Below the pieces are notes generated by a model. That model was not told where the DNA came from and ran no database searches. It saw nothing but the letters and a program-made list of their open reading frames with translations. DNA of 64,000 bases from Trichopria drosophilae. Its lineage: Eukaryota; Arthropoda; Insecta; Hymenoptera; Diapriidae. How positions within the stretch are numbered: position 1 is the stretch's first letter; each line of letters begins with the position of its first letter. The stretch covers positions 66,339,501-66,403,500 of the forward strand of contig CM059582.1 in assembly GCA_030407085.1 (NCBI GenBank), in the 5' to 3' direction. The position numbers were made by a program, and so were the translations under genes. Below, piece after piece: positions 590-53,559 of this stretch.

Positions 590-1291
590 GTAGCTAAAAT
601 ATTGTCATTGTACTGAGAAAAATTTTAATGAAATTACTTACTACCAAAACTCACCAAGCTTCTAAATGAATATGAACGCTGGAATTATTTACATCTTAAT
701 GAAGTATTAGTCTACAAAATATCAACTTTTAACTACGTAACAACTGTCAGCAATACGAATAACTGCGGTGCTTGATGAGATTTCGTAATAATACACTTTA
801 CCAAATATCTTCCGAAGTCACGTGAACACTTTTCAGTGAAAAGCAGATCTTAGTAGTAAAATTCGGGAATAAACGTTTTTACTGATTAATATGGAGGTGT
901 TTAAATATGATTAAGTGATCGATTAAAAATCTAAAATGATGAAATCCTATTAATTTTGGGTGAAAATTAATTAGAACTCGAAATGCACATTTTATAGTTA
1001 TGAATCAATTTTTCATTTTTTGTTTACAATATTTCCTTATATTAATTTTAATATTTTTGAAATGCTTTATTGATAATTTTAGTGATATTTAGTTTCGTTA
1101 ATTTTCGTTATTTCTGTTTTACTACTTAACAATATTTCTTTCCGTTGATTCTCATCTTTCAATTTTGTGAAAAAAATTTACTATCTCATATAATTTGTCC
1201 TGCATTCTCTTGAGAGAGTTTACCATTTTATATTTACTATTTTTTCTGCGTGTTCAAACTGTATGTCTTGGCCCAATATCAGCAATCCTCA
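590..1291 (+). repeat. Foldback element, distal part of left arm
   Basis: This segment is the reverse complement, with moderate divergence, of 16201-16806 and, after an interruption, 22561-22690. For example, the stretch around 1250-1290 (GTATGTCTTGGCCCAATATC) recurs inverted at 16205-16240, and the stretch around 610-690 recurs inverted at 22565-22670. It runs directly into the next arm segment at 1292, whose partner ends at 9715. The two right-arm partners are therefore one arm split by an insertion. A third, direct-orientation relative of 780-1000 is present at 24040-24300. Confidence 0.8.
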
Positions 1292-2429
1292 CGGAGTACC
1301 GCCCGGACAGATCCCGTGTGGGTTTCCATAAATTATCCGATTTTTCCTGTCTTGTAAAGAAGGACAGAAAAGTGCAATTTTGTGATTCATTATTGACCAG
1401 TATTTCATCGCACGTTAAACAAATTAACTTATTGGACTTACGCTTTCATTACGGGTCAAAAATACTATTAAATTACAAGCTCACCTTGATTACTAAATTA
1501 TTAATGATTTTGCAGATTCTCTAAATATTCCAGATATTTTTCTGCATATGATAAACTCACAACTTCAATTGACAAGGTTAATAAACGATCGTACTTAATA
1601 AATGTTTCGAAAATTTGTCAAACTCGTCCGAATTTGACTGTGTAATTGAAATTGTGCCATCTGCCATCAATTACAAATTTCGACAGTAAAATTAATCCAA
1701 AAACTTAAAGAGCTCAGGCAATGTTTAAATGTACCGAGTGCATTTATTAACATGACCGAGTCATTCTTCACATTGGAAACTTGTAACCAATAGCAGGACC
1801 ACTATTCCTTAACCAGTCGTTCACTTTCACACCTTCGGCGCGCAAGTTCTATGGAAAACCCTCTTGATTCTTCATATCAGATATAACAATTTATTTATTA
1901 CCAACTTTCTGAGAAAAATATCTTTAGTATCGTATTCAAATGATTACAGATGAAAACGATGATTTTGAAAAATTAACAAATAACATATTTCTTTCAGTGC
2001 AAATGTGGCCGTTTCTTATCTACACTAGTCAGGGTTTTTGTCCCTCTCCCGTCCCTTCGATACGAGAAAAGCCCCTCCCCCCGCCCGCCGCCCCTTAGAA
2101 ATTTCGAAATACCTTACGATCTGTCGAGGCGGTATTATGGTGGATCAAGATATACAATTTGAATACGCAGAAAAATAAATGTCAATTTTTCAACAATACT
2201 GGTTCTGTTGGAGGTAGATAGTCCTACGTGACAACAAAAAGTTTCAATATCACAACCGAACAGTTACGTTATTTTAAACAAACAGGAACGCATTAAATGA
2301 CGCTGAAACTAGCAGTGGATTCGCAGCAGCAGATTCGGATAGATCTCAAATTCAAAGGAAATAATTAGTTCCACCTTTCATAAAAAATTTCAAAAATGCT
2401 GGTATTTTCTACAATTTATTTAATGAGCA

Positions 2430-2926
2430 AATCTAATTGCCGGGAGAGGGCATTAATAAAGGTGGAAAGTTAGCGACTGGCTTGGGTGTGATTGTTTCTA
2501 TTGTTTGCTTAAGGGCCTATATGCCTTTCGAGATCAGTTGCAAGCGAGATTCCGATCAGTTCGAAAGCGCCTTTCAACGTGAACGAGTTGTGTTGTGCTG
2601 GTGGAGTGTCGGTGGAACTGCACAGCAGCCGAGATATTTGGTGATGGTGGTGGTGGCCCCGTACGTTGTCTCTAGTTACGTGAGTATGTGCGTGCTAGTA
2701 ACCGAGCGTCTGAATATATGAGTATTTGTATGTCGATAAAGTTCGAGTGAGTCGTGTTTAGGGCAGGGCCCGCTCAGCCCTACTGATGAGTCCATGAGCG
2801 GGCCTGGGACGAAACACCCACCAATGTATAATTTTTATAATGTTTTATTTGCATGCGAGGATTTGCTTGATATCCTCAAGGCCGATTAGCGCGGCAAATG
2901 TATTTGTCTTCGCCATAGTAGTAACA
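2430..2926 (+). mobile_element. 497-bp insertion carrying a hammerhead ribozyme
   Basis: The foldback arm is interrupted here. The inserted block is flanked by the direct 5-bp repeat GAGCA (2425-2429 and 2927-2931). The empty site is visible in this same window: the related module at about 3074 reads GAGCAGTTAGCAGTCTC without the insert, and the opposite arm near 8680 is likewise uninterrupted. The insert is richer in G+C than its surroundings, has no credible ORF and no obvious terminal inverted repeats, and does not show TG...CA ends. A 5-bp duplication suits integrase-mediated insertion, so a solo LTR or a retrozyme-like non-autonomous retroelement is likely. A SINE-like or unclassified DNA element cannot be excluded. 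Confidence 0.75.
2754..2817 (+). ncRNA. Hammerhead self-cleaving ribozyme, type III
   Basis: Every invariant core position is present in order. Stem III 5' strand is GTG (2754-2756), followed by U16.1 (2757) and H17 = U (2758), so predicted cleavage is after 2758. Stem I is TAGGGC (2759-2764) with GCCCTA (2777-2782), six perfect pairs. The core CTGATGA is 2783-2789. Stem II is GTCC (2790-2793) with GGAC (2807-2810). GAAA is 2811-2814, and CAC (2815-2817) closes stem III. The open helix is stem III, which makes this type III, and it is only three pairs long plus the A-U. Loop I (2767-2776) and loop II (2795-2804) are perfectly complementary over ten bases (GGCCCGCTCA), which could be a strong tertiary kissing contact or, alternatively, a competing inactive hairpin. 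Activity is inferred from the motif only. Confidence 0.88.
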
Positions 2927-3295
2927 GAGCATTTAGCAATCTCTCAATCGCATCTTGAGAACTAGGGCGTGCCCATGTCTGAAATTTTCACAAGGACATT
3001 ACGAGAATATTAGAAATCAGTTCCACCTTCCAGAAAATTAAAAAAAAAATGCTGGTCTTTTCTAGAATTTACTTACTGAGCAGTTAGCAGTCTCTCAATC
3101 GTATCTCGAGAACTAGGGCATGTCCGTGTCAGAAATTTTCCCAAGAAATTTTACATTTTACAATTCACGAGATCGATAATGTGAAAATTTCAGACACGGA
3201 CTGGCCCTAGTTATCGAGATACGAGTGAATGACTGCTAACTGATCCGTAAGTAAAAATTTTTCTGGAAGGTGGAACAGATTTCTAATATCTTACA

Positions 3296-4455
3296 TGTTG
3301 GTAGTTTCTGAAGTGTTCGGTTACTTCTCGGTTTTCGAAGGGGCGAGCGGAAGACAATAAGACTCACTAGTATGAATAAGGATGTGAAGTAAAGTCTAGT
3401 AATCGTAGTATGATTTTTTTCATAATATGAACAACGAAAGCTACATGAATATAATCCAGTTTTGTCCAACTCCCAAAAATGACGGGAATGTATTAACCAT
3501 TTCGCCGGCTGGGCTCTTTTATTGGCATCAAGCGCGACTTGGCCCAGACCGACAAGAATTACTGAAATGGCGTCGAGAGTTTCAATTGTTAAAGTATGTG
3601 AGTAGTTTTTACCTATCGAAACATAATATATTTATAGTTTTGAGTTCAAGGAACACGAATATCATAATATAAATTCAATATTTTGAGGTTTTCGAGATTT
3701 TTTAAGATGTTGAATACCAAAAACTTTCAATAAGTTACACGTAGGTCATTAAATTTTTAAGGCGCTTATAATTATGAAATCAGTAATGTTTTGTAAGTAT
3801 CAAGTATGAAACATTTCTTAAAAGCTGTGTCTAAATCCACGAACAAATGGAAAATCGTTATACAGGGTTCATATGAAATGGGTAAATTTGGTTTGCCTTA
3901 AAGCATAGGTGCTTTCTGGGGGCTGCCGCCCCAGACCTCCCGCTTACATCCTAACCTAACTAAACACGTTAAAAACTTATTGCATCTGCCTCACTCTCTC
4001 TCTTACGCACGATATGGGAAGTTTACGTGTAAATAGACACTCCGTTTCTTAAAATTATTAAATTGTTATGGAAAACCGTTCCTGAAAATTCGGAAACCGG
4101 CTTTGCAAATTATTGGATGTTATTAGAATTGCAACTTTTGAATTCAGTAATTGCAACTGCTCAAAAATGCTGTCACAGGTTACGTTTATCGGGTTCCCAA
4201 AATTGCTGTGGAATTAATCAGTTGTCTTAGACGTGTATCACTTCTTGGAATATGGCTACAATGAGTAAATGTCGAAGCACATTAAATTTCGAGGTTGATT
4301 TTAATATCAAATTAATAACGCTTTCATTAGAAATAAATGTAAATAATATCGTTTATTAATAGTATTAATAATAATTGTAAACTATTAATTGTTTTTGAGA
4401 CCATTTAACAGTTTATATGCATATTTGTAGAAACTGTTCAAAGTGACTTCTTCCC
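3296..4455. other. Sequence interrupting the foldback arm; possible mariner end at 3861
   Basis: From about 3296 to 6484 the left half has no counterpart in the right half, so this is probably inserted DNA. At 3861 a TATACAGGGT motif appears, which is the kind of end seen on the other IS630/mariner-type elements here, and it could be one end of the element carrying the dead transposase at 4456-5845. No matching right end was found. No gene is seen. Confidence 0.35.
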
Positions 4456-5845
4456 TCATGTTGAACACACAGTTCCGCTTGCCGTAATAAATTTTGAGGA
4501 ATTTCGCGCAGCATTTCTGGAGTGATTTGACCAAGGGCTTTCAATATCTTGTCGCTCAATTCCTCGCGACTTTGCATTGGCTTGGCGTAAACCCTCTCTT
4601 TTAAAAAACCCCAGAGACAAAATCTGGAGGTGTTTGATCAGGTGATCGAGCCGGATATCTGGCCATTGATCCACGTGTTCCAATCCATCTCGCTGGAAAC
4701 ATTTCATTAAGGACTGATGCGGCCAGCCTTGAATTATGCGGCGGTGCACCATCCTGCTGAAAAATAATTTTTCTCCTTACTTCAAGCGGCTATTCTTCCA
4801 GCAAAGGTTGCAGGTCATTGCGCAGGAAAGAAGCGTACTTCTCGGCAGTCAGAGTGCCTTCAAACTCGTGCGGTCCAATCTTCATTGAAAAAATGTGAAA
4901 AGTTTGTAATTTTTTTTCGAAATAACCTATATATAATAATAATTAATGCAGTTCTCCACAACATTAACGATCAATTTACAACAATGCAACTTTCTGTTTT
5001 TAAAATATCGTCATTATTATGTTTTTGTATAACAGTAGTTTTTTGAAAATTTGAAAACATTTTTAATTTGTGGTATCTCGATGCAGTATATTAAATTAAA
5101 AAATGTGTATAAATTATTGTTTGAAACATATTATTTAGAAATATTCAATTATAATGATTTATTTACAAATATTGAATTATGAGATTAATTTCGTTGTAGG
5201 TGAAAGAAAATCTTGCCAAGTTTTCCGAAACTATTCCGCACCACAGATGGATGCTCCACCTAGACTGACTCCGTCTTATCGGCATTATCGCGAATGGATT
5301 ATCCTCGGCATACTCGTGGTAATTGTAAGGATTAAAAATTCCATCACGAGTGAAATTACACTCATCGGTACTCAATAACGACATTAAAAAAAGAGGATCT
5401 TTTTCATGTTCCTTCAAAAGCCACTGACTGTATTGGAGACGACGTTCATAGTCTCCGGGCTCAAATCCTTGGACACGCAAAAATTGGTACACATGTAAAT
5501 TGTTGCGTTTTAGTAAACGCTGGATCGAAGAATAGCTTCGTCCGTGCGATGAAGCTAGGGCACGAATGCTCGTCCGAGGATCGTTATGCACACTTTGCAA
5601 AATTTCTTCCTCCTCTTGAGGTTGAACTAAATTACGTTCGCCGCCGCGACCATCATGTCTCCTGGCAGGAACAGCATTGCCAGTTTCCCGAAGTCTGCAA
5701 ACTGCAATGAAAATTGTCCGACGATCAGGAGCCCGGCTGTTTGGAAATCGCCTTGCGTATTCCACCTCCGCATCAGACGCATCAGACTTCTACACTCTCC
5801 GTAAATAATTATCATTTCGGAATACTCTGCACATGAAAAAGACAT
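4456..5845 (-). pseudogene. Broken IS630/Tc1-mariner-type transposase with DUF4817-like N terminus
   Basis: Read on the minus strand, the pieces line up as one transposase. Near 5845 is a DUF4817-like start (EMIIIYGECR), then after a frameshift a helix-turn-helix segment (YARRFPNSRAPDRRT, about 5760). Next comes a DDE_3-type catalytic region with STDECNFTRDGIFN as the first acidic motif (about 5330) and HLWCGIV (about 5220). The frame is then broken by about 300 bp of AT-rich DNA (about 4890-5210). Downstream fragments include IFQQDGAPPH (about 4755), with the second catalytic Asp, and RSPDLTP-like sequence (about 4660). There are at least two frameshifts, several stops and the insertion, so it cannot make an active enzyme. 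Confidence 0.8.
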
Positions 5846-6484: not shown

Positions 6485-7300
6485 ATTGAAGGTGGATTTC
6501 TAATATCCTCGAGATGTCCTTGTGAAAATTTCACACACGGACATGCCCTAGTTCTCGAGATGCAAGTGAAAGACCAAGGCCAGAATTCTTTTTAATTTTT
6601 TTGGAAGGTGGAACTGATTTCTAATATCCTCGAGATGCTCTTGTGGAAATTTCAGACACGGGCATGCCACGAGCCTGAAGCTGGCAGTTCGCAGCCGAAC
6701 GCCCCAAATCAGGGACGTAGCGCGCCAGGGGCCCCTCAAAAGAATTTTTGCAATATTTGCGAAAATAAGCACCAGGGAGTCATTAATCGGTTCACATTAT
6801 ATTCTGGAGGTTCTTTAGGATCACCGGGAAAGATTAAAAGAGAATCCAGAGTGCGACGCGGCCATTTCGAAATGGAAAAAGCACTTAGTCATCATTTTTT
6901 CCAATAAATCTCTATTATTAACAACAGAAAATTTCTAATCGATTTCAATTTTTTTATGGAGGTTCCTTGGGATCCCCGGGAAAGATTAAAAGAGACACCC
7001 GAGTGCGACGCAGCCATTTTAAATTTCTATAACACAATCAGCCAGAAATGTTTAAGTAAATCCCTACTGTAGGTCAGAGGAAATTCCGAATTGATTCCAA
7101 TTTTTTTATGGGGGCTCCTTGGGATACCTAGGAAACATTTTAAAAGTTTCTAGAGTGGACGTGGCCATTTTGAATTTCTAAAATTCAATCAGCCGGAAAT
7201 TTTCAAGTAAATCCGTACTACAGGTCAGAGGAAATTCCGAATCGATTCCAATTTTTTTTATGGAGGTTCCTTGGGATACCTAGGAAAGATTTAAAAAGAA
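6485..7300 (+). repeat. Foldback inner arm: left-side tandem modules
   Basis: Starts with modules sharing GGTGG...TTTCTAATATCCTCGAGATG (6485 and about 6605). It continues as a tandem series of roughly 150-bp units, each containing TGGAGGTTCCTTGGGATACC-like sequence followed by a GCGACG(C/T)(G/A)GCCATTT phrase (about 6800, 6960, 7110, 7260). The same units recur inverted at 7855-8640. Open frames in this stretch, including one at 6608-6907, are products of the repeat and show no domain. Confidence 0.75.
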
Positions 7301-7854
7301 TAAGAGATGATATAAGAGAAAATTCTAGTCTTTTATATTATATAAAGGCGTATTATTATGTTACTCAAATATAAAGAGCGATTCCCAAAAAAATCCTTCT
7401 CCTACCCACACCGCTGTAAAGTTCAGTTTTCACGTTATCTCGTTTTTTGAAAGCCTTACTATTGATGACGCTGAAAGCAGCAGCGGATTCGCAGATTGTT
7501 TATGAATTGTTTAAATTATTGAAGTGTCACAAAGCTCTCCATAGGATCCAGAATGCGCGTTTCAATCACATTTCTTTTCTGTAGCTTCCTTTTCATGAAG
7601 AAACAATTTCCAAACGACAGAAAAAATTAATAATTCCTACAACTGTTTACAAATTATTTAATGATGTTGAAACTAGCAGAGGATTGACAGCAACGGATTC
7701 GAAACCCGCTTTCAATGTGAAGTGTTTACCAGGTTTTAAAAACCTGACCAACCAATATAGTTGCCCCAAATAGTATGAAAAATATTTTTGAGTATCTTTA
7801 AAAAAAAAGGAATCAACTTTAGACGTGAATTTCTAATCAGCTGCTAGTTCAAAA
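7301..7854. other. Centre of the foldback element
   Basis: Spacer between the two inverted tandem arrays. It has a few internally repeated phrases (for example ACGCTGAAA...GCAGCGGATTCGCAG near 7470, echoed near 2305 and 7675). No coding sequence is seen. Confidence 0.5.
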
Positions 7855-8660
7855 TTGCCGCGTCGCACTCTGGAATCTCTTTTAATCTTTTCTAGGTATC
7901 CCAAGGAGCCTCCATAAAAAAATTGTAATCGATTCGAAATTTCCTCTGACCAGCAGTACGGATTTATTTAAAGATTTCCGGCTGATTGAGTTTTAGAAAT
8001 TCAAAATGGCCGTGTCGCATGCTGGAAACTTTTTGAATGTTTCCTAGGTATCCCAAGGAACCTCCATAAAAAAAATTGGAATCGATTCGGAATTTCCTCT
8101 GACCTGCAGTACGGATTTACTTGAAAATTTCCGGCTGATTGTGTTTTATAGAATCAAAATGGCCGCGTCGCACTCTGGAAACTTTTTAAATGTTTCCTAG
8201 GTATCCCAAGGACTCCCCATAAAAAAATTGGAATCGATTCGGAATTTCCTCTGACCTACAGTAGGGATTTACTTCAAAATTTCCGGCTGATTGTGTTATA
8301 GAAATTCAAAATGGCCGCGTCGCACCCGGGTATCTCTTTTAATCTTTCCCGGGGATCCCAAGGAACCTCCATAAAAAAATTGAAATCGATTAGAAATTTT
8401 CTGTTGTTAATAATAGAGATTTATTGGAAAAATGATGACTAAGTGCTTTTTCCATTTCGAAATGGCCGCGTCGCACTCTGGAATCTCTTTTAATCTTTCC
8501 CGGTGATCCCAAAGAACCTTCAAAATATAATGTGAACCGATCAATGACTCCCTGGTGTTTATTTTCGCAAATATTGCAAAAATTCTTTTGAGGGCTACGT
8601 CCCTGGTTTGGACCGTCCGGCTGCCAGCTTCAGGCTTGTACATGCTCTCGTTCTCGAGAT
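7855..8660 (-). repeat. Foldback inner arm: right-side tandem modules
   Basis: Inverted counterpart of 6485-7300. About five tandem copies of a roughly 150-bp unit are present, recognisable by GGCCGCGTCGCACTCTGGAA-like phrases at about 7855, 8010, 8160, 8310 and 8465. Each is followed by TATCCCAAGGA(G/A)CCTCCAT. The units diverge by scattered substitutions, so the array is not recent. Confidence 0.75.
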
Positions 8661-9715
8661 ACGATTGAGAGACTGCTAACTACTCATTAAGTACATTCTA
8701 GAAAATACCAGCATTTTTTAAAATTTTTATGGAAGGTGGAACTAATTATTTCCTTTGAATTTGAGATCTATCCGAATCCGCTGCTAGTTTCAGCGTCATT
8801 TAATGCGTTCCTGTTTGTTTAAAATAACGTAACTGTTCGGTTGTGATATTGAAACTTTTTGTTTTGTCACGTAGGACTATCTACCTCCAACTGAACCAGT
8901 ATCGTTGAAAAATTGACATTTATTTTTCGGAGTGTTCAAATTGTACATCTTGGTCCACCGTCGGCAATCCTTACATAGTACCGCCTCGACAGATCGTAAG
9001 GTATTTCGTCTAGGGGGTGGGGGGGGGGGGGGGGGGTGGCTTTTCTGGTATCGAAGGGACGGGAGAGGGACAAAATCCCTGACTAATGTAGATATTAAAC
9101 GGCCACATTTGCACTAAAAGAAATATGTTTTTTGTTAATTTTTTAAAATCATCGTTTTCATCTGATATTTTTTCAGAAAGTTGGTAATAAATAAATTGTT
9201 ATATCTAATATGAAGAATCATAGAACTTGCGCGCCGAAGGTGAACGACTGGTTAAGGAATAGTGGTCCTGCTATTGGGTACAAGTTTCCAATGTGAAGAA
9301 TGACTCGGTCATGCTAATAAATGCACTCAATGGATGTGCAATCGGATGGCACAATTCCAATTACACAATCGAATTCGGACGAGTTTGACAAAGTTTCGAA
9401 ACATTTAATAAGTACGATCGTTTATTAACCTTGTCAATTGAAGTTGTGAGTTTAACATATGCAGAAAAATATCCGGAATATTTTAAAGAATCTGCAAAAT
9501 AATTAATAATTTAGTAATCAAGGTGAGCTTCTAATTTAATAGTTTTTTTGAGCCGTAATGAAAGCGTAAGTCCAATAAGTTAATTTGTTTAAAGTACGAT
9601 GAAATACTGGTCAATAATGAATCACAAATTTGCACTTTCTTGTCCTTCTTTGCAAGACAGGAAAAATCGGACAATTTATGGAAACCCACACGGGATCTAT
9701 CCCGGTGGTACTCCG
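8661..9715 (-). repeat. Foldback element, right arm (first part)
   Basis: Reverse complement of 1292-2424. A long G run at about 9016-9034 sits where the left arm has a C-rich stretch (2060-2095). The match ends exactly at ACTCCG (9710-9715), where the CACTA element begins. The arm resumes after that element at 16199. Confidence 0.8.
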
Positions 9716-9954
9716 CACGGAGAAGTCGTTGAGAGAACAGCTGTGCTTCGCGCATGTGCGCAGCGCACTCTCTCCGCTTGCACAGCAGCTCGCTCACGAT
9801 TGAGTGAGTGACTCACTCAAAATGCTGAGCCAGCAGCCGTCTCAAATCGCGGGAAAGCTACCGTGTTGTGAAAAAGATGGCAGTCTTCTCAAGTACTTGA
9901 GCGGCATGCGGAACGCATTACCGCTCACAACTATGTAGAAGAATGATTTTGTAA

Positions 9955-11655
9955 CAAAAGGATAACTTGAATCAATCGGATTGAAACAAATTTCACCAAA
10001 TTTGTGAGCGCAAGACATATACAGAAATATAATTGTAAATTAATTTAAGGCAAAAATTACATTTGTTATCTTAGAGTAGAGCAGAACAATTTTCACCGAT
10101 AATAGTGAAATGGACTTTGTTTTGATGAAAAATTGATCTATTCTATTCGAAGATCACAAATATAATACTGGCCTTAAATTGATTTATATGTAATTATATT
10201 TCTAAATATGTCTTGCTGTTATAAACTTAGTGAAATTTGTTTCAGACCGATTAGAAGTAGTTAATCATGTTCAAAATGTTGAAACAAAATTAGAAAAAAA
10301 TTTACGCCTGACACTTTTCCAATATTTGGGAGAAAGTGGCAATCTGGTTCAATTATGATCATTTGCCATCACTTTGTGTTTAAACACCAATTTTAAAACT
10401 TTATACTTTTAGTAAAATAGCTCAAATAAATAATATTGACACTTTTCCCTTAATTGTGCAAAAAGCAGTATCGTGCTTAAATTTCTTATTATTTTGTCTA
10501 AACTTTTTGAATGTGATAACTGGAATCGAGCGGATTGAAACACTTACTCTCTTACTTCAAAGTAATCCTATGCTCCATTTTCTACATACAATTTATGTAA
10601 ATAATGAAAACAATGTTAGCCAAAAGACATGAAAATTTCAACCGATGGGTTTAAGACTAATTATTTCAAGTTTCTGGATACCTTTTACCTCCAGAAACTT
10701 GAAGCAATTTGTCTTAAACCTATCGGTTGAAATTATCATGCTCAAAAAGTTAAAAGAAAATAATAAAAAATGTAACGTCGACGAGACTTTTTATCCTTTT
10801 ATTTTAACTTTTTGAGCATGATAATTTCAATCGATGGGTTTTAGACAAATTGCTTCAAGTTTCTGGAGGTAAAAGGTATCCAGAAACTTAAAGGAATTGG
10901 CCTTAAACCCATCGTGTGAAATTATCATGCTCAAAAAGGTAAAACAAACTAATAACAAATTTAACGTCGACTCGACTTTTTCTTACTTTTTTATTTTACC
11001 TTTTTGAGCATGATAATTTCAACCGATGGGCTTAAGACCAATTCCTTCAAGTTTCTGGATACCTTTTACCTCCAGAATCTTGACGCAATTTGTCTTAAAC
11101 CCATCAGTTGAAATAATCATGCTCAAAAAGTTAAAAGAAAAAGATAAAAATCTCGTCGACGTTGAATTTTTTATTATTTTCTTTTAACTTCTTGAACATG
11201 ATAATTTCAACCGATGGGTTTAAGACAAATTGCTTCAAGTTTCTGGAGGTTAAAGGTATCCAGAAACTTGAAGTAATTTGTCTTAAACCTATCGGTTGAA
11301 ATTCTCATGTTCAAAAAGTTGAAGTGAATGTAAGCACGATGTGGCTTTTTACACATTTGGGAAATGGCAATCTGATTCATTTGTGATATTTTATAACAAA
11401 TTTATAATTATCACAGGTTATAACCAATACTGAAATCCAAATTACTACAAGTATATAGTTATAAAATTAGTGTTGAAACAGAAATTGATGTCAAGTGATC
11501 ATAACTGAACTAGATTGACACTTTTGTCCAAATATTGAAAAAGACGAGTCGGGCTTAAATTTCTTATAATTTTGTTACAACTTTTTGAATGTGATAACTT
11601 TAATCGATTGGTTTGAAACAAATTTCACCAAGTTTATGAACGCAAGATATATACA
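9955..11655. repeat. Array of alternating palindromes in the CACTA subterminal region
   Basis: Four near-identical hairpins lie at about 10622-10745, 10812-10935, 11008-11131 and 11197-11315. Each has arms of about 50 bp (ATAATTTCAACCGATGGG ... CCCATCGGTTGAAATTAT). The loop alternates between two orientations: GGATACCTTTTACCTCC in the first and third, and its complement GGAGGTAAAAGGTATCC in the second and fourth. The three linkers between them are themselves near-palindromic, centred on CGTCGAC. Flanking this core, a related module (ATCGGATTGAAACAAATTTCACC) occurs in both orientations at about 9975, 10240, 10520 and 11600. In plant En/Spm the subterminal regions carry direct and inverted transposase-binding repeats, and a similar role here is inference. 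Confidence 0.8.
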
Positions 11656-12213
11656 GAAATATATTTTCTGAATAATTTTAGTGTTTCGGCAACTAATTTG
11701 TAAACATTCATGCGGTGAAGTTGTATAGAACCTTTTTGTAAAAAAAATAAGCTGTCACTCGTAATAATCCATTCATTTTTTTTTAATTTGTAAGGCTCTT
11801 TAAAAAGGCAATAAGAAGGCAACAAATTGCTTAACACATTAGAAATTACCCACTTTACATACAAATGTTACGTGTAATTAGAAATGTCGAATGTGAAATT
11901 AAAATAACAAAAGAAATGTGTAAAAATTGATTTTTGTTAATTTTATATTTACGTATTTGTAATTTTAAAAATAATTATACAGAATAATTTTAGTCACTTT
12001 TAAGAATATGCCCTCCAGTAGAACTATTTCCCGTTTAAATGAATAATTGGCAAGGATTATTGTGAAGGTGATTAAAACTCGACTATTGATATAAAGCTCA
12101 TTTTATACTCATTTTATACTCATTTTTTACAGTTATAAACGACGTTTTTTTTACTGTTATTTTAATACAGATTTTATTGTCATGGATCGTGCTACATTAA
12201 AATATTATAAAAA
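11656..12213. other. No gene seen
   Basis: AT-rich DNA between the palindrome array and the stop codon of the transposase. A short open frame at 11634-11864 has no recognisable features. Confidence 0.45.
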
Positions 12214-14375
12214 TTATCTTAAAGCTATATATTGACATGCGTCTTTATGAACAAATAGACATGGTGTTGTATTTGGCAAATCTTTGTATTTTACGGCAAA
12301 TGTTTTAATACTTCTTCGAACGACATATGCATGGACATGATCATCGAAACTAATTTCGCTATAGACGTCGACAAAGAACATAACGTCATCGTCAACTTCA
12401 AAAATTTTGCCAAATTCTTTTTCCATGCTTTCAGCATTTACAGTGATGAAGGTTCCAATTTTATACGAAGTACCATTGATATCAACTGACGTATAAAATT
12501 CTTGATTTGGATACACTGCTTGTAATTCTGACGTACTACTATTATCGCGAGAACCAAAAGTTCTGAAAGGTTCATATTGCTTATTTATCATTTCACACAT
12601 CTGAAGCATTTGTTTTATAGTAATAGTTTTTAATAAGTTTCTAGTATTGCACGTTGATTGGGCGTTCAATTTTATCTGGCGATGACGAGCTTCACATCTC
12701 ATTGAGGAAAAATGAATGACCGGTCCATTTTTTAATAATACTGAAGGTTAGTGCGTCAAAATATGAAATTTGGGTTTCAAATCCCCTATGAGTTTAACAT
12801 ACAAAGCATTGTGTTTCTCAATTAAGCGTTTTAAAAATTTCGCGTCAGAATGCATTACATTAGTTAAAGTTAGAATATCAATCATGTGCCTTAAGTACTT
12901 ATACAGTTTCCAAAATTCATCATCTAATGGAATTTTGTCTCCAATAATTAAGCCAAAATATCGGACAAAGCAAAGCATTTCTGATGCGGACATTTTTAAC
13001 GATTCCTTCCTCTTCAATCTGATTACAGAAATTACTGGAGGTCTATTGGAACTTTCGGTAGAGCCAAAATCAAAATTTTTTATTCTAGTATTTAAAAATT
13101 CGACTGAAAAATATTGTTTTTCAAAAATGAAATTGTAAATTAAAGCTTGCATATCGTCGGACGCAACGCCTTCGAAAACATCGTGCATTAAATCCACTGT
13201 AATGTTTTCTGTGACGTGGAAACCCGTTACTTTGTGAAATGCACATGATTCTTTAATGCCCGTTATGGAATGGTTCTTTAACTTTTCATCCTTTTCATAA
13301 TTTTCCCGAGTTCTTAATAAACATGCTTTTTCTTCGACTAATGTACGCATTTCATCGTTTGAGAGTGAACATATTCTACAAAAATTGGAATTATTAAAAG
13401 ACTCTATAAATCCTAATATTCCGTTCAAACCTAAATTATCTCCTAGTAGCAAACATAATTGAAATTTTACATTAAAAGTTTCGTTAACTACATTAACTTC
13501 TATGCCCGTTTTTTCAAGAAAATTCAATTCATCAATTATTTTTCTAAATACTTCGTCATTAGAGAATTTTTTTTATCTTCTACTTTAACCAGCATTGCAA
13601 ATAAAACACTACTTAGCCGAGAAGCAATATGAACAGGAAGGCAGGCAAGGTATGCGTAGACAGCTCCGAATTTGTTGACGCCGGCATGACTACCTAATGG
13701 ATTGCCTACTTCTAAATCATCGTAAAATAAGAAAATAGGAAATAAGAATCCATTTATGCATTTAGTTGCATACTTTGTCTGCCACAGCTCTGCTTGCATG
13801 ATATTTGATATCATTGACTGTAGCCTTTTCAATCCATTAATAAAAGACACTATTTGTTTAAACATGCCGGGTATCTCTAAAAATATTTTTAATGTTTGGC
13901 GTAATGGGATATGAATTGCATATAATGGCTCGGGTACAAGCCGCATTTCATTTTCCACGAGTTTTTCTGTAAAAGTGTGCCCAATGCAAAATTCTTCGTA
14001 ATTGGCGAAACCTCTATTTTTTAACAGATTAAATCGTAGTGTCTCCGTTTGTACGCCATTAAAAATATTTTTATAATTGTCGAAAACTTTTTTTATATCA
14101 ACTTCTTGAGTGCTATTACCTTTTTTTAATATTTCCATGACTTCTTTCTCTAACTCTGGTATATAGATATTTTTAACAAAATGCGCAAGTTTATCTATAA
14201 TAACTTGCACAACCTTCCTCGATAAACTAGGATCGCCGTATAATATTAATATAAATGATATTATATACTCGAGAATTGACTTATCCATTATCATATACTT
14301 ATAAAAATTATGTACTAAATACAAACATCCAGGACTTATGTTATACATAAAGAAGGTAACAATATAATATTGCAC
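12214..14375 (-). pseudogene. EnSpm/CACTA-type (tnp2-like) transposase, inactivated
   Basis: Three segments of one protein read consecutively on the minus strand. The first (14375-13536) has YGDPSLSRKVV and the family-typical FLFYDDLEVGNPLGSHAG with a conserved acidic pair. The second (13527-12748) has LLGDNLGLNGILGF, a NFCRICSL cysteine motif and DLMHDVFEGV, whose D..H is typical of tnp2-type catalytic domains. The third (12702-12214) has SSMRCEARHRQIK and a beta-rich C terminus. The first two are separated by one frameshift in an A-rich run near 13565. The second and third are in the same frame, split by a single TAA at 12748-12750 that sits where the family normally has Tyr (LTH-Y-P). So there are only two lesions over about 700 codons. 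Family assignment is from remembered motifs and is supported by the element ends. Confidence 0.72.
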
Positions 14376-14392
14376 TAACGATAAAAAATGTG

Positions 14393-14725
14393 CTAGAGTT
14401 TTTTAATGTCCACAACAAATCTTAGCACATTTGTTGAGCATTTCACCGGCTCAAATTCGTATGGTCCATATACTAATTTGTGTATAATGTTCCACGCGTA
14501 ATCGCAGATATATGGCCACGAGTTTAGTGCCACCAAGCACTTAAAGCATGATTGAACGGCTGTAAACTGAGTCGCAGATGAATGAAGTTCTTCTTTGATG
14601 ACGACGTAGGATTGTATTATATTCGTCAGAGGTCCACAAACTATCACATATGAGTGAATGGGCAACCCCAATTCTTTCAAATAATTCTCATGTTCGGTTT
14701 TCTGAACCAGCAGCTTATTACAGTC
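14393..14725 (-). CDS. Candidate upstream exon of the CACTA element gene
   Basis: An open frame begins immediately after a strong minus-strand 3' splice site (TTTTGTTTTGTTTCAG ending at 14726) and runs to a TAG near 14393. It encodes about 110 residues including LNSWPYICDYAWNIIHKLVYG, with no domain I can name. It lies just upstream of the transposase body and in the same direction, so it is probably part of the same multi-exon transposon gene or of a second gene of the element. The real 3' boundary is not clear. Confidence 0.35.
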   Translation of the reverse strand, partial: DCNKLLVQKTEHENYLKELGLPIHSYVIVCGPLTNIIQSYVVIKEELHSSATQFTAVQSCFKCLVALNSWPYICDYAWNIIHKLVYGPYEFEPVKCSTNVLRFVVDIKKL

Positions 14726-14734
14726 CTGAAACAA

Positions 14735-16193
14735 AACAAAACCCTGAAATTATGCCATTGATATAATAAACTTGTCAAATTATAAGTACAATTTTACATA
14801 ATGATTTACAGTGTGAAGTTGTCGCAAGATCGTAAATATCGCACACCGATTGCGCCAAAATCGCGGTAAGAAAAATAATCCTCCGAATACCCCTCGACCT
14901 TCGAAATTAATCGAATATTTCCATCATGATTCCCTGCATATCAATAAACGCGATAAGATTTTGAAAATTTTTATTTGAAAAACGCATTTCCACTAAATAC
15001 GGCATTAATATAATATGCAACATTATAATGTCACACATAATTATGTAACATATACAATGTACGAAAAAATGCGATGTAAATAAAATTTGAAGCTAGTACA
15101 CACACACACACACACATTCAAAACTACTTGTTTTTACATGCAATAACGTACATATATAAACGAAGAAAAATTTATATAAAATTATCGAATTATTACGGCA
15201 CTTAAAATTTACAAAAGAAGCACTTTTTTTATAATATTGCATTATACTACACTTACCACATGCAGTCCGTTTACTCAATAGCACAGTAAAATTTCTTGTT
15301 AATGGCTCTCCGTGTATATACGTTGTTAAATAATAAATAATTTGTTAACCTGCACATGCAAGGCAAACGACTTTCTTATTATCTCTTTCGAAATTTTTGT
15401 GTTCGACTCTTTTGTTTTTACGGATTTCGGAAGAGTACTGATCAATGGTAGTAAGAGGAGTGACAATATGGAATGATGATTTCCTGAAAAAAGGGAAATT
15501 AAAAAACATAATATTTATATCATGACTACAGTAAATATGACAATAGAAGAATATTTTCCTTTCAAAATACAATATAATACATAAATTGTATCTGTTGCGG
15601 TATGGCAAAAAGGCTTAATACTTTAGTTAATACATAAAAATTTAAATAATTAAAACAATGCGTTTAGAGCTCTTTAAACTGTTTTTGTAAAATGTAAGTG
15701 TATTTATTAAACTTTTTCTACTTCAATTTTGAGGTTAATGGGCAGGATTTTACTACGAGATAATATGTTTAAATTTGCATAAATCGAAAATGTTCCATGC
15801 AAAGCAGGAATGAATTAGAAATAGTCATATGTCAACGAAGATTCACATAACCTATATATTCATTGGTAATATGTATATTCCTTCGTGTAAAAGAACACCG
15901 TATAGAAATCATTATCCATATACTTACTTCATTCACTTCTTTAGAAGAATTTCTTCTGATAAGTCCTGAGATCACTTGTACGAATTTGGCAGTTTGTCAC
16001 TTTCAATACTGTCTTTTGCTATAAGCCGGTTCAGCGGTTGTATATGATATGACGAAAAAGTCTCACAAGGCGGGAAAGCTGCAAACTTCTACAAGAGTGC
16101 GCATCTTTCCGTTCCCTTACGAGGTCTCTCAGCTTAACTTCGATTAGCAGTGCGTCTATCTCCAATAAGACAGCAGCGCACTCAATGTGTTCT
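14735..16193. other. CACTA 5' region, otherwise featureless
   Basis: AT-rich sequence upstream of the transposase, with the candidate exon above and an (AC)n run at about 15098-15115. The last 150 bp before the terminal repeat are less AT-rich. A GCGGGAAAGCT phrase near 16071 also occurs near the other end (about 9850), in the same direction. Confidence 0.4.
15350..15483 (-). CDS. Candidate short exon, CACTA element 5' gene region
   Basis: It is bounded by a good acceptor (CCCTTTTTTCAG, AG at 15485-15484) and a GCAG/GTTAAC donor at 15349. It encodes about 44 residues ending in KKVVCLACA, a CxxC that could be half of a zinc-binding site. Its exit phase does not join directly to the 14725 exon, so another exon must lie between them if both are real. 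This is prediction only. Confidence 0.3.
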
Positions 16194-16200
16194 CAGTGCG

Positions 16201-16806
16201 TGAGGATTGCTGATATTGGGCCAAGACATACAGTTTGAACACGCAGAAAAAATAGTAAATGTCAAATGGTAAACCCTCTTAAGAGAATGAAGGACAAATT
16301 ATATGAGATAGTAAATTTGTTCAAGAAATTGAAAAATGAGAAACAACGGAAAGAAAGATAGTAGTAAGTTAAGTAATAAAACAGAAATAACGAAAATTAA
16401 CGAAACTAAATATCACTAAAATTATCAATAAAGCATTTTAAAAATATCAAAATTAATATAAGGATATATTGTAAACAAAAAATGAAAAATTGATTCATAA
16501 CTATACAATGTGCATTTCGAGTTCTAATTAATTTTCACCCAAAATTAATAGGATTTCATCATTTTAGATTTTTAATCGATCACTTAATCATATTTAAACA
16601 CCTCCATATTAATCAGTAAAAACCTTTATTCACGAATTTTACTACAAAGATCTGCTTTTCACTGAAAAGTGTTCACGTGACTTCGGAAGATATTTAGTGA
16701 AGTGTATTATTACGAAATGTAATCAAGCACCGAAGTTATTCGTATTGCTGACAGTTCTTACGTAGTTTAAAGTTGATATTTTGTAGGCTAATACTTCATT
16801 ATTATG
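16201..16806 (-). repeat. Foldback element, right arm resumed
   Basis: Reverse complement of about 700-1291. It begins right after the CG duplication that ends the CACTA element and stops at 16806, where the Ty3/gypsy LTR begins. The arm then continues at 22561. Confidence 0.8.
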
Positions 16807-18025
16807 TTGTGACGCTAGCGCCGCTTCCGACGCTGATTTCCGCCACGAGCTTTACGGCGTTCCGCCGTGCGCCAGCCGCCTCTGACTTTGTGGCGAAAGT
16901 CAAAATTGTCGAACGGCCAAAAAGGTCCCACGAATCGAGAGCAACACCCATGCAGAAATGATCGCACAGCCCGGCCAGCTGTGGTCCCCAAAAATCATAG
17001 AACACAACACGAGAACCCGAAGCCGAAACTCCGAGCTCCTGGACTGGGGCAGACCCACGACGATTCCCGTGGGCGGTAGAGCACTGCAACGCTCACCTAC
17101 CGGGTGAGGGCGGGAGTACTGGCTTTGCGTTCCTTGTTTCTAAAGACTGGTCGGGGAATTACGAAATAACGGCACGCACCCAAGTTTTCTCTATTCGAGG
17201 TTAGCGTACACTAAAACGCACACGGCGTTCGCGAAACGAACTTAATTGCCACACCGGTGGCATGAATCCGCGGTATTGGCGGGGAGGAGAGGGGCGTGGC
17301 GCGAGCGGACACAAAACGGCACTGCACCTCACCGAGGTCTGTAGCTGCCCGTTTTTCCTCCTTCACCTTGACCCACCAGGTAGTCGGTCAGTTGCACAAG
17401 ATTCGAGGCGTCCACAGGGTGCAAAATGGAAAATTCGCCGATTATGTTCGCCCGGATGATACACCGATCGTATCCCAAACCGAACTGGTTCCGAAGTCCG
17501 TCCCACCGATTCAGCGGAACGGTGAGTGACGTACCGCCTTGCGGCTCTTGCTTGAAACAGAGTTTCGTAGACGACGTCCGGGAGCCCCACCAGCTCTCTC
17601 CCAAGCCGTCATAAAAAACATTGAAAAAACATGCACATATATGGACTCGGCAATGATATGTGATGCGCGAAAAACTATACTGATAATTACAAAGTGGCCA
17701 CCAGGTGGTGTGCCAACCGCATTTCGCAGGCGATATCTTAAGATTAATACGCCGTAATTAATGATAACAATAATAAAATACAGTAGTATAGAACTTTACG
17801 GTAAGAAACATCGAGATAGACATTAGGGTGGGAGGGATTTTCCCCCGTCCAATGGGAGAGTCCGGTTTGGCCCCACTAGGCTTTCCACTGATACGCGTTT
17901 AGAAGTTACTAGGGATGATGCAACATTGTTGGACTTTCCCCTATCCGTCTCTATTGGGGTCGCGATGGGGGTCCAGCCGGTAAGAATGCGTTTACTTGTG
18001 ACGAGGTGGGTACACCACGTCACAA
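16807..18025 (-). repeat. 3' LTR of the decayed Ty3/gypsy element
   Basis: Direct repeat of 21326-22560 from about 16868 onward. The first 60 bp (16807-16867) have no counterpart in the other LTR because that copy is truncated there. It runs from TTGTGACG to CGTCACAA. Sequence identity is high but interrupted by substitutions and small indels, for example around 17830-17860. Confidence 0.85.
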
Positions 18026-18039
18026 ACTCCCCCACCCTT
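18026..18039 (-). other. Polypurine tract
   Basis: On the minus strand AAGGGTGGGGGAGT abuts the 3' LTR. This is the expected plus-strand primer site and confirms the element's orientation. Confidence 0.75.
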
Positions 18040-18067
18040 AAACGGTGGTTATTCTCTCTCACTAGGT

Positions 18068-18544
18068 CTATATGGTGACATTGCTGCCTGATTCCGGCCA
18101 CTCGCCAACCACCCTATCTCGAGCCATGTGGTGCTCCCGGTGGGTTAATTCCCGCCCCCCCCCCCCAAAAAACGACGAATCAATAGACATTGCAAAAATC
18201 AATCCTAAACTAAATGAAATTCGGTGCGATAGAAATGTAACAAAATTGCTGCCACGGCAGGTACTCACCGTTCTGCTTCCACTCGCCTCGCGCTGGCGTA
18301 GGGAAGAGAATCGTGTCGCGAGAAGGTGACGGACATACACCTCCCTGGACCAGACGGAGATACCCACAAAAAACACGAAAACAGTAAACCAAGGTATTAA
18401 GGCACAGGAGTAATCGAGACACAAAAAAAAAAGGAAAAAAGAAAAAAAAAGAAGAAAAAAAACGGCCATGATACGTTCACCTAGGTTACCACGGCGTAGT
18501 TCACCTACCGACCTTGTGGGACTATGCCCCGTATTTAGTTCCAT
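18068..18544 (-). CDS. Open frame directly after pol, possible ORF3, unproven
   Basis: A 158-codon minus-strand frame starts at an ATG immediately after the tandem TAA-TAG that ends pol and runs nearly to the polypurine tract. The N-terminal third contains a very hydrophobic Phe/Leu-rich stretch encoded by a poly-T tract (plus-strand A run at about 18421-18465), followed by a Cys/Trp-containing second hydrophobic stretch. It occupies the env/ORF3 position of the element but has no recognisable env features. The homopolymer origin makes a chance frame quite possible. Confidence 0.22.
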   Translation of the reverse strand: MELNTGHSPTRSVGELRRGNLGERIMAVFFLLFFSFFLFFLCLDYSCALIPWFTVFVFFVGISVWSREVYVRHLLATRFSSLRQREASGSRTVSTCRGSNFVTFLSHRISFSLGLIFAMSIDSSFFGGGGRELTHREHHMARDRVVGEWPESGSNVTI

Positions 18545-18547
18545 CTA

Positions 18548-20910
18548 TTAAATGATTAATCTAACTGCGGGTAGAATTCCGCGGGGAATATACCGCTTCA
18601 AATCGGTTACCGGCACCAAAAGGGTTTCCGAAGCGCCTTCATCGATCACTGCATATATGGTGAGGGATTTTCTGCATACTACGCGGCATAGCTGTCCGTA
18701 CGTAGGGGCTAATTTTGCCGCAAAGTGCTTCGCGGAGAATGACAGGGTGTGGGTACGCCTCCACACTAGATCGCCTTGATTGAAGGTAACTTCCCGTCGA
18801 CCCCTATTAAAATAGCGTGCCTGTCTATCAGACGTTTTTTCCATACGTTGCGCCACCAAATCGTGTAGTGCCCGTAAACGCGTTATACGGTATTTCCACA
18901 CGTGTGGATCGAATAAGGCTAATTTTCGATTACCTTCGACTTCGGATCGGAGGTCACGCACGGACCGCGGCTGTCGCCCAAAATTCAAGAATGCGGGGGA
19001 TACGCCCACAGACGAGTGGACCGCTGTGTTCACCGCAAATGTGAACTCGTACAAGTGCTTATCCCAATCCCGTTGATTGGCACTTACGAACATCCGAATC
19101 ATTGTCTTGACCACTCGATTAACCCTCTTCACCGGGTATTCTTGAGGGTGGTAAGAAGGGATGGGATCCATCCTGACTCCATATTTCTTCAGACGGTCAA
19201 CCACAACGTGGTTTCGAAATTCCTTCCCGTTGTCCGTCAGGTGGTTCCGTGGGCAGTTCTACCTGAAGATTACCAATTCTTCCAGGGCTTTGATGATATT
19301 CTCACCGGATTTAGTTCTGAGTGGTCGGCACTCAATATATCGGGTAAACGGATCTTCAATAATCATCACATACTGGAATTGCGTTGAACTGGCGGGTAGT
19401 GGTCCCATGAGATCTGCCGCGATTCGAACCCATGGCCCTTTTACTACGTTTTGACCCATAAGAGCGACTGGTCCTCCGTGCGAAACTTTATTCTGCTGGC
19501 ACTTTTGACAAGCCCTTACGTAGGCCACCACATCGTGGTACATGCCAGGCCAGCATACGTGTTCTTCCAACCGCTGGTAGGTCTTGTCGACGCCAAAGTG
19601 ACCCGCCGAAGGTAAATCGTGACAGTAGTGTAACGACTGCTGCCTATGCTCCTTCGGTACGACAAGCTTCCACGGCTAGGAATCCAAAACAAAAGGGTCC
19701 AAAAGGAGGTTAGGTTTGTGCTTGTACAGCAGACCATTCTCTTCCCGCCATGACGGATACTTATGTAGGAATTCTTTCACTTTCCGCATCTGTAAAAGGT
19801 ACCAGGCGTCTGTGGTGTAGTCAAATATTGCCGAAATTTCGTTTTCGAAGGCGCGCGAAAGAGCATCGGAACCACGTTGTCCGCGCCTTTCCGGTGGACG
19901 ATCTCGAAGTCGCTGGCTTGCATGGCCAAAGCCCACCTGGCTAACCTGCCTCGGGGATCCTTCAGATTTCTTAGCCACCTAAGACCAGAGTGGTCAGTCA
20001 CCACTGTGAAATGGTATCCTTCGAGGTAGGGTTGCAACTTTCTGATGGCCCAGAGCACTGCCAGGCACTCTTTTTCCGTTACCGAGTATTTCTTCTCGGC
20101 AGCACTTAAAACACGATTAGCGAACACTACCGGGTGTTCGACCCCACCGATTTGCTGGGTCAACACTGCACCGATCGCGTAATCGCTTGCGTCCGTATGG
20201 ACCGTGAACGGTTGCAAGAAGTCCGGTCGGATCAACAGTGGAGGGGTGGTTAGAGCAGAATTGATCTTCTCGAAAGCCCTCTGCTGCTCGTGTCCCCAAT
20301 ACCACTTCACGTCCTTTCTTAAGGGGTCAACCAGGGGAATCTTATCTTCTCACAGCGTTTTCAGGAACCTGGCATACCACCCCACCATCCCCAGAAATCT
20401 CCTGAGCTGGCGTAAGTTATTGGGTGGTGGATACTTCACAATCGGTTCAATATTCTCCGGGTTAGCCTGTAGTCCTTCAGCGTTAACCACCTAACCCAGA
20501 TATTCCACCGAGGAAAAGCAAAATTCGGATTTATCACGATTTATGGTGAGGTTTGCCTCTTTCAGTCGGGAGATAACCAGTTTTAACCACCGGAGATGGT
20601 TTTCAAAAGTCTTAGTGACAATTATCACATCATAGAGGTACGCGAAAACAAAATTTTCCCATGCTGGGTTAATCACCTGGTCGAGCCGTATTGTAAGTTC
20701 TCGTCGAATTGAGGCGGAGGCTCTATTGGCCACCTGTATTACCCCATACGATGGAGACAAACGTTCTTTCAAAAGGGTTCCCACTTTGGCGCCGAAATAA
20801 GACCTTGTAGCGCCGGGATCTATTAACGCACAGAATTGCTGGTACCCCACGCACAATGGGAGGAATAACCGTCGGTCGTAAATCGCTATCACGTCCACAC
20901 TTTCCGTACC
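18548..20910 (-). pseudogene. Ty3/gypsy pol remnant (PR, RT, RNase H, INT)
   Basis: Order on the minus strand is as follows. Protease comes first, with LIDPGATRS (about 20810). RT survives only as its C-terminal part, in which the YLDD box reads YLYD (about 20630), so a catalytic Asp is lost and most of the palm before it is missing. RNase H (20310-19777) has HTDASD, KECLAVLWAIRKL and TDHSGLRW. The integrase zinc region and core are split over several frames (19740-19204): RACQKCQQNK, ADLMGPLP, then a D-containing TDNGKEF in another frame. The final catalytic Glu motif reads PVKRVNR, that is Glu to Lys. The C-terminal integrase domain runs to 18548 with ITRLRALHDLVAQRM. Multiple frameshifts separate these parts and the product cannot be functional. 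Confidence 0.88.
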
Positions 20911-21215
20911 ATGCGCGGTTTCGTCTTGATTGCTTTCAGGCGAGGTGGTTTCGTGGGGAGGATCGTGGATCGATACGGTTCGACGTGGACGAATTGGATC
21001 CATGACGTCAAAGATTGTTTGTGGGATCGATACCACAGTTTTGCATCCCCTCGCAGAATTGATGGCAGTGCTCGTACTACCCCATCTAGCGAGAGATTCA
21101 TGCTCTCTGTACATTCTATTGTATTCTCTAAAAATTCGTCTGGATCTTCCTTGTGGTCACCTGAGAATGAGATGCCCCCCAGTTTCGCACACTTTATCCT
21201 CACGCCCGCGTCCAT
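20889..21215 (-). pseudogene. Ty3/gypsy gag (capsid) fragment
   Basis: The roughly 108-codon frame begins with MDAGVRIKC and contains FSGDHKEDPDEFLENTIEC and LRGDAKLWYR, the capsid pattern of Ty3/gypsy Gag (F.G...DP.EFL and L.G.A..W). It ends soon after W..F and no nucleocapsid zinc knuckle follows, so most of capsid and all of nucleocapsid are deleted before the protease. Confidence 0.7.
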
Positions 21216-21325
21216 AATTCCCGAAGTAATTATCCTGATTATCCTGTATTCTGCAGCCTAGTGGATAATACGAAGGGTCCAGACCCTCCGCCTCCCTCAA
21301 ATTGAACGTAAGCGGGTACGTAGTG

Positions 21326-22560: not shown

Positions 22561-22690
22561 ACTAAATAATTCCAGCATTCATATTCATTCAGAAGCTTGG
22601 TGAGTTTTGGTAGTAAGTAATTTTATTAAAATCTTTCTCAGTACAATGACGATATTTTAGATGCTTATAATACATTAGGTCGTACAGAAT
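22561..22690 (-). repeat. Foldback element, right arm, distal end
   Basis: Reverse complement of about 590-690, including AATAATTCCAGCATTCATAT and AAGCTTGGTGAGTTTTGGTA. It completes the right arm that the CACTA and Ty3/gypsy insertions had split. Confidence 0.75.
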
Positions 22691-40850: not shown

Positions 40851-41269
40851 TATATTTCTTTGCATGTCTATATATATATTTTACATTACTTGTCTTTCTT
40901 TCTTTTGATTTGTTATAATGCATGCTAAAAAATCATATTCACATACCACTCTATTCCCAGTAACTGTCAAATCGAAATTTTATCAACTTTATAGGTATTG
41001 AATATAATTTTATCTTTCTATTACCTTTTTTTCCTTTTTTTCTTTCGTTATTAATTTCATTACTAGTTATATTACAAATATTTCCACAAGGCCTAAACAT
41101 TTGTGAATCCGAGCGATTACGACGGAAGGTGTTTGAAATGTTTGTAAAATTTCAAAACTATGGCATTTTAACATCTAATGCAATTGGTAGGTCTAAGCCG
41201 TTAATTATTTTATTTTAATATTTAAATACACCTACGTTAAATCTATATTATTATTTCTAGCGTTTTTCG
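40851..41269. other. No gene seen
   Basis: AT-rich DNA with TA and pyrimidine runs (about 41015-41045). Confidence 0.4.
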
Positions 41270-53538: not shown

Positions 53539-53542
53539 AAAT

Positions 53543-53554
53543 TGGCGCCCGAAC
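53543..53554 (+). other. Primer binding site, tRNA-Lys type
   Basis: TGGCGCCCGAAC begins four bases after the LTR. It is the well-known complement of the 3' end of tRNA-Lys used by many retroviruses and Ty3/gypsy-group elements. Confidence 0.88.
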
Positions 53555-53559
53555 AAAAT

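Follow-up and report, generated by a model that had tools for sequence, protein, structure and literature searches.

The window analysed here is a 64,000-nt stretch of contig CM059582.1 of Trichopria drosophilae (positions 66,339,501–66,403,500, forward strand). It contains two type III hammerhead motifs that share a design and differ in sequence (Table 1). Hammerhead 1 is located in a short insert within one arm of a large foldback element, and hammerhead 2 lies in an interspersed repeat. The window also holds a Gypsy-type element (53107–62637) with LTR pieces that are 97.5–98.3% alike and a 1003-aa pol frame (57195–60206), in which the hammerhead descriptor used below has no match, and direct repeats, 93% and 87% alike, around Gypsy-like frames at 16867–22563. 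Among the best 120 of 6333 relatives of the Gypsy pol, the nearest named ones are from Trichogramma. Other named relatives come mainly from Hymenoptera (ants, Nasonia, Prorops), and those of a butterfly, beetles, a fly, a bug and a pseudoscorpion rank lower. As weak, transposon-derived evidence, they make a hymenopteran host likely, in agreement with an earlier note on this DNA, which had read the host as insect-like from the letters alone.

Table 1. Coordinates of the features of the window considered in the text
Feature	Positions	Strand	Basis
Solo-LTR-like insert, 497 bp, 3′ end GTAACA, 5′ TG absent	2430–2926	+	GAGCA flanks; other foldback arm lacks the insert
Target duplication GAGCA, left copy	2425–2429	+	sequence
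Target duplication GAGCA, right copy	2927–2931	+	sequence
Foldback left arm, bearing the insert	594–2427	+	inverted match to right arm
Foldback right arm, broken by 9716–16198; empty insert site near 8683	8683–16807	-	inverted match
Putative LTR core promoter, TATA-like and TCAGTT initiator-like	2517–2540	+	motifs
GTGAGTA, 5′ splice-site consensus upstream of the hammerhead	2680–2686	+	motif
Hammerhead 1, type III	2754–2817	+	sequence; descriptor scan; RF00008 match below gathering score
Loop I strand of 11-bp loop–loop (kissing) helix	2766–2776	+	complementarity; shuffles; covariation of 10 of these pairs
CUGAUGA core of hammerhead 1	2783–2789	+	sequence
Loop II strand of kissing helix	2795–2805	+	complementarity; shuffles; covariation
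GAAA core of hammerhead 1	2811–2814	+	sequence
Hammerhead 2, type III, same design, different sequence	39869–39942	+	descriptor scan; family model R1

Hammerhead 1 consists, in order, of GUGU, a U at H17, UAGGGC, a 12-nt loop I, GCCCUA, CUGAUGA, GUCC, a 13-nt loop II, GGAC, GAAA and CAC. It has the CUGANGA and GAAA core, the U16.1–A15.1 pair, H17 and three helices with helix III open, i.e., the make-up of a type III hammerhead. The earlier note had described a complete type III hammerhead with its full core, a 6-bp stem I and a 4-bp stem II, and these can be read directly (UAGGGC/GCCCUA and GUCC/GGAC). Stem III, to which it had given three pairs, actually has four (GUGU/ACAC, including U16.1–A15.1). 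The cleavage triplet is GUU with U2758 at H17, and the predicted cleavage between 2758 and 2759 is the one already proposed. A strict descriptor, made up of the core and the three stems and applied to both strands of the whole window, returned only hammerheads 1 and 2, versus no site in 300 dinucleotide shuffles. The letters thus confirm a complete type III fold, for which self-cleavage is predicted. In the covariance-model check that the earlier note had called for, the Rfam type III model RF00008 matches 2751–2820 with 32.4 bits (E 2.7e-5 in a search of 351 bases) and thus stays under the gathering score of 48.5. The best of ten relatives scanned, locus L024, reaches 41.9 bits. These scores are probably low because the model expects shorter loops. 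At gathering scores, no Rfam family matched the 64-kb window. A microRNA reading of the region (mir-593) was rejected at 18 bits versus a threshold of 100, and the exact letter pattern of hammerhead 1 had no match in prokaryote and IMG/VR contigs.

The two loops of hammerhead 1 are complementary to each other over 11 bp, a feature that the earlier note did not contain and that only 9 of 200,000 loop shuffles reached. Among the relatives described below, the complementarity extends to 12 bp in L018 and L023, and it is partly lost in L010, L024 and L011, with seven, six and five pairs in a row, respectively. Covariation was assessed in 14 sequences over 24 pairs from four helices, i.e., the three stems and 10 of the loop–loop pairs. 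Standard pairs fill 97.3% of the 336 cells, versus 27.5–47.0% when the partners are slid by one to three columns. Changes on both sides were found in six pairs (four in the loop–loop helix and one each in stems I and III), a count reached by one of 500 shuffles, and further pair types across the 14 sequences are no more frequent than in shuffled data (157 of 500 shuffles reach the count). The aligned letters therefore demonstrate that the hammerhead fold covaries. It had been suggested earlier that the ribozyme acts as a dimer or in a concatemer. A dimer of hammerheads appears superfluous, because stems I and II are closed in the type III topology and the 11-bp helix could hold the monomer together; the relevant tandem would instead be that of two LTRs with one hammerhead each, as found in five elements elsewhere in the genome (see below).

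Hammerhead 2 comprises stem III GGCGU/ACGCC, GUC, a 7-bp stem I, CUGAAGA and a 6-bp stem II, with predicted cleavage between 39874 and 39875. Its loop–loop helix has 10 bp (39884–39893 with 39919–39928), a length attained by 349 of 200,000 loop shuffles. No Rfam hammerhead model matched 39869–39942. A family model, R1, matches hammerhead 2, which was outside its training set, with an E value of 1.1e-5; on the reverse strand, R1 weakly matches even the ribozymes themselves (best E 0.0007), presumably because the stems are symmetric. A TATA-like and a TCAGTT motif are found upstream. The host repeat (39759–40016 and about 40849–41240) is split by another insertion. With 40 of 441 candidates scored, it occurs at no fewer than 41 places with identities of 90% or higher. 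Eight copies were read: the window copy itself (L041), L042–L046, and two in L047. Only the window copy and L042 pass the strict descriptor; L043, L044 and L045 have lost core bases, and L046 and both L047 copies fail elsewhere. In L047, a 1.9-kb stretch occurs twice in the same orientation (1–1891 and 3139–4999, 97% alike) with a 64-bp-period array in between. The repeat was rejected as a second LTR retrozyme, since six of the eight copies are broken, no LTRs were found and the L047 pair represents a 1.9-kb segmental duplication. Hammerhead 2 shows the same design written in quite different letters, in a family that looks decayed.

The insert that carries hammerhead 1 has GAGCA on both sides and is missing from the right arm of the foldback element, which bears out the short mobile insertion proposed earlier. 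Because its 5′ end lacks TG, the insert can be called a solo LTR only as a likely assignment that is not provable from the window family alone. The large foldback element was recognised from the window-region copies L009–L016: segment 1292–2427 is the inverted match of 8683–9715, the left arm from 594 is common to copies that also match 16199–16807 inverted, and the right arm consists of 8683–9715 plus 16199–16807. Between the arms are two inverted arrays of a 152-bp minisatellite (6805–7301 and 7848–8519), and a further insertion occupies 9716–16198. With its single hammerhead and no partner LTR, the window copy appears to be a worn, solo-LTR-like relic, which would have jumped into the foldback DNA transposon and then multiplied as its passenger.

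The window family comprises ten insert copies (the window, L009–L014, two in L015, and L016), with U at H17. The strict descriptor finds the ribozyme intact in four (the window, L009, L010 and L011). Four of the six failing copies have defects in or adjoining the core, i.e., a lost core base (L013), an altered GAAA (L014) and loss of the base before GAAA (both L015 copies); the others carry a mismatch in stem I (L012) or, with stem III present, in stem II (L016). The two inserts of L015, which share the base loss, lie 5.6 kb apart in inverted orientation. Variable columns make up 29% of the ribozyme, 31% of the immediately preceding sequence, 39% of that farther upstream and 55% of that downstream, where the L012 row differs grossly at the end. 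There is little sign of selection on the ribozyme in this family.

Relatives were retrieved by blastn of 2700–2840 against the same genome (936 Mb, 509 contigs). Forty of 321 candidates were scored and 39 of these places were read, C5 near 35.2 Mb being left out. Besides the window family, they comprise family B (18 loci with 22 hammerheads, i.e., four two-LTR elements, L017–L020, and 14 other loci), family C (the two-LTR element L021, with two hammerheads, and L032), and the single loci L022, L023, L024 and L031. The strict descriptor is passed by all three family C copies and by L023 and L024, and is failed by L031 in the core and by L022 in stem II. Of the 17 family B copies scanned, all but L026, which has a stem I mismatch, pass (16 of 17), and the ribozyme letters of the five copies outside the scan (L036–L040) are the same as those of passing copies. 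CUGANGA and GAAA are kept in all 22 family B copies, a figure biased by retrieval through similarity to the hammerhead region and collection with a motif from its 5′ part. H17 is C in 18 of these copies and A in four. The earlier note had held that homologous copies without a conserved core would speak against its reading; such loss is found in part in the window family, with its six failing copies, and not in family B.

The five two-LTR elements, L017–L021, contain one hammerhead in each LTR, and their LTR pairs are 94.9–99.3% alike. The LTRs of L017–L020 are about 455–525 bp long, start with TGTAAC or TGTACC and end with TTACA, and the PPT AAAAGGGGGG precedes the 3′ LTR. The PBS is TGGCGCCCGAACAGGGAC in L017, TGGCGCCCGACCGTAGGAC in L018 and L019, and TGGGGCCCGAACAGGGAC in L020; we take it to be of tRNA-Lys type, which within family B is exact only in L017 and altered in the other three. 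L021, which represents the second family, has a different primer site, TGGTGCCGAAACCCGGGAA, presumably of tRNA-Phe type; it is 6153 bp long, with LTRs that are 98.1% alike and the duplication GTAAC. All four complete family B elements are flanked by 4-bp target duplications (ATCA, CAGT, CTGT and GTAT). Among the 14 other family B loci, seven have a single LTR bracketed by a 4-bp duplication (in L025 this LTR contains an insert), some possibly by chance as several end pairings were tried per locus, and the other seven show none, among them L034, which has an interior. At L025, L027, L028, L029 and L030, the 3′ ends of the LTRs hold tandem units of about 40 bp and additional TTACA ends, of which L028 has up to four, and in several of these loci PBS copies are interposed; such units could have arisen by primer slippage.

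The longest ORF lying wholly inside L017–L021 has about 104 aa from a start codon, or up to 115 aa from stop to stop (L021). A tblastn search with 120 Gypsy proteins and one BEL pol, the single BEL query being a weak probe, found no pol match inside these elements, and a pol gene within L021 was rejected on the same search. A BEL-like pol frame adjoins L019 and belongs to its flank. No tRNA gene was found by ARAGORN in the seven loci searched; the interior of L017 has a tRNA-like stretch (3400–3461) that scores 25.6 bits versus a gathering score of 29. The units from one predicted cleavage site to the next measure 1305, 1375, 1797 and 1820 nt in the family with the tRNA-Lys-type PBS and 5529 nt in L021. 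Folded as a circle, the 1305-nt unit of L017 (GC 36%) lies 3.4 SD below 20 shuffles.

With a hammerhead in each LTR, a PBS, a PPT, short duplications and no protein-coding capacity, L017–L021 belong by their anatomy with LTR retrozymes, for which a circular RNA would be expected. Hammerhead 1 is probably a type III hammerhead with a long Watson–Crick loop–loop helix that belongs to the LTRs of such short non-coding insect LTR retroelements, which would replicate via self-cleaved circles. The covarying fold, the hammerhead per LTR in five elements, the anatomy of LTRs, PBS, PPT and duplications, the lack of a long ORF and the splice-site consensus in most copies are read directly from the letters, and the replication route is a proposal built on them. 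RNA polymerase II would transcribe the element from the LTR promoter into an RNA whose two LTRs each hold a hammerhead. The two ribozymes would cut and release the unit from cleavage site to cleavage site, which may then be ligated into a circle. The circle would be primed by a tRNA at the PBS and copied by the reverse transcriptase of a putative helper LTR element, and integration of the copy would create a duplication of 4 or 5 bp.

The hammerheads follow a recurrent set of motifs. Of 14 hammerheads tested, 11 are preceded by TCAGT motifs at a distance of no more than 260 nt. A GTRAGT motif starts 48–92 nt before the ribozyme in 13 of 14 hammerheads of the first set, and lies 29–150 nt upstream of the core in 37 of 40 copies, which form about six related groups and are not 37 independent cases; chance would give roughly 0.02 to 0.06 per copy in random sequence. 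It is missing in the window copy of hammerhead 2, L025 and L027. A splice donor at this place suggests that splicing may remove or spare the ribozyme. Taken together with the families above, these motifs lead us to a broader proposal, which remains tentative: an insect lineage of LTR retrozymes, made up of several LTR families with different tRNA primers, would carry the hammerhead with its 10–12-bp loop–loop helix as a fixed module downstream of the promoter and a 5′ splice site, and spread via self-cleaved circles, with splicing and self-cleavage in competition.

The splice-site consensus close upstream also suggests a spliced ancestor, and the ribozyme might then be a processing site of autonomous LTR retrotransposons that makes no circles: in the 5′ LTR it would shorten the leader downstream of the splice donor, or in the 3′ LTR it would shorten the tail, and its presence in the short elements would simply be inherited. 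The sharing of the module by two families with different primer sites and the length of L021 are consistent with this idea. However, L017–L021 lack both a long ORF and a pol match, and a coding RNA cut in both LTRs would lose R and its poly(A), which makes this explanation unlikely. It is more doubtful still that the window copies and their relatives are merely decayed descendants of a ribozyme, none of them working now. Most copies of the window family and of hammerhead 2 indeed fail the descriptor, but only 8 of 68 ribozyme columns vary in family B versus 62–90% in five flanking bins, the first figure being biased by retrieval through the ribozyme, and the identity between paired LTRs reaches 99.3%. 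Finally, the conserved feature could be a long nested hairpin formed by loop I with loop II, for instance for packaging or regulation, with an incidental hammerhead; this hairpin is indeed the minimum-energy unknotted fold (-30.9 kcal/mol versus -12.4 for the hammerhead without the loop–loop helix), but the idea is highly improbable, given that stem I pair 12–37, which the hairpin does not form, varies as AU (5), UA (5), GC (2) and GU (2) across the 14 sequences, that every family B copy keeps CUGANGA and GAAA, and that hammerhead 2 retains the core and three stems with other letters. As the loop–loop helix contributes a modelled -22.7 kcal/mol beside the -12.4 of the hammerhead, the two together could compete with the nested hairpin, geometry permitting.

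Compared with plant LTR retrozymes, the retrozyme-like elements described here reside in an animal host, and their primer site looks like tRNA-Lys or tRNA-Phe, versus what we take to be tRNA-Met in the plant elements. Plant LTR retrozymes are non-coding LTR elements with a type III hammerhead per LTR, a PBS, a PPT, 4-bp duplications and solo LTRs (Cervera, Urbina and de la Peña 2016, PMC4918200), as are those of this genome in the features that the covered parts of that paper describe. The replication scheme proposed there, i.e., LTR transcription, two self-cleavages, circularisation, tRNA priming, helper reverse transcription and integration, is the one followed above. A 6-bp stem I and a 4-bp stem II, as in hammerhead 1, are the lengths given for type III hammerheads in the part of PMC7936874 covered. 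Differences from the plant elements, as far as the covered text gives them, are found in the loops (12–16 and 13 nt with a 10–12-bp Watson–Crick helix in intact copies, versus 6–8 and 4 nt in plants), in the unit length (1.3–1.8 kb, and 5.5 kb in L021, versus about 0.7 kb) and in the GC content (36% in the L017 unit versus over 55%; PMC7229834).

Animal non-LTR retrozymes and Penelope-like elements resemble the present elements as hammerhead-bearing retroelements of animal hosts, insects among them (excerpts of PMC7229834 and PMC7761336). In these sources, however, the hammerheads are of type I and the retrozymes are described without LTRs, PBS and PPT, whereas the elements here combine type III with all three; on these grounds, a Penelope-like element or type I retrozyme was ruled out. 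Likewise, a 2024 review (PMC11722881, in the portion covered) assigns animal retrozymes to the non-LTR elements and gives them type I hammerheads. According to the passages covered of Perreault et al. 2011 (PMC3088659), nearly all hammerheads borne by eukaryotic repeats, the vast majority, are of type I. That paper includes pseudoknotted hammerheads and repeat-borne ones of mosquito and cave cricket, which share a base-paired loop contact with ours, in those passages of 4–6 bp versus 10–12 bp here. Type III hammerheads with loop pseudoknots have been described from the genomes of termites and dipterans as well as from HDV-like agents associated with toad and termite (PMC7936874, covered part). 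They likewise occur in insects and have a Watson–Crick contact between loops I and II; unlike here, the contact involves about 4 nt of an internal loop within an extended helix I, and the termite motifs are isolated, with no recognisable ORFs nearby and no LTR mentioned in that part. According to the same part, this pseudoknotted architecture was searched for in hymenopterans and none was found. Among the titles and abstracts listed for the open-licence literature, in several searches a subset of the papers found, none concerns an animal LTR retrozyme or a type III hammerhead located in animal LTRs. Related elements may be known to others, since the covered portion of PMC7761336 mentions, as work in preparation, insects with elements carrying type III hammerheads.

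If the preferred reading of hammerhead 1 and its relatives as parts of insect LTR retrozymes is true, the LTR retrozyme, described so far from plants in the literature covered, would also exist in animals, where its type III hammerhead is built differently. This would bear on the origin of the type III hammerheads in animal HDV-like agents and plant viroid-like RNAs, and it would provide an animal system for direct tests of retrotransposition via circular RNA.
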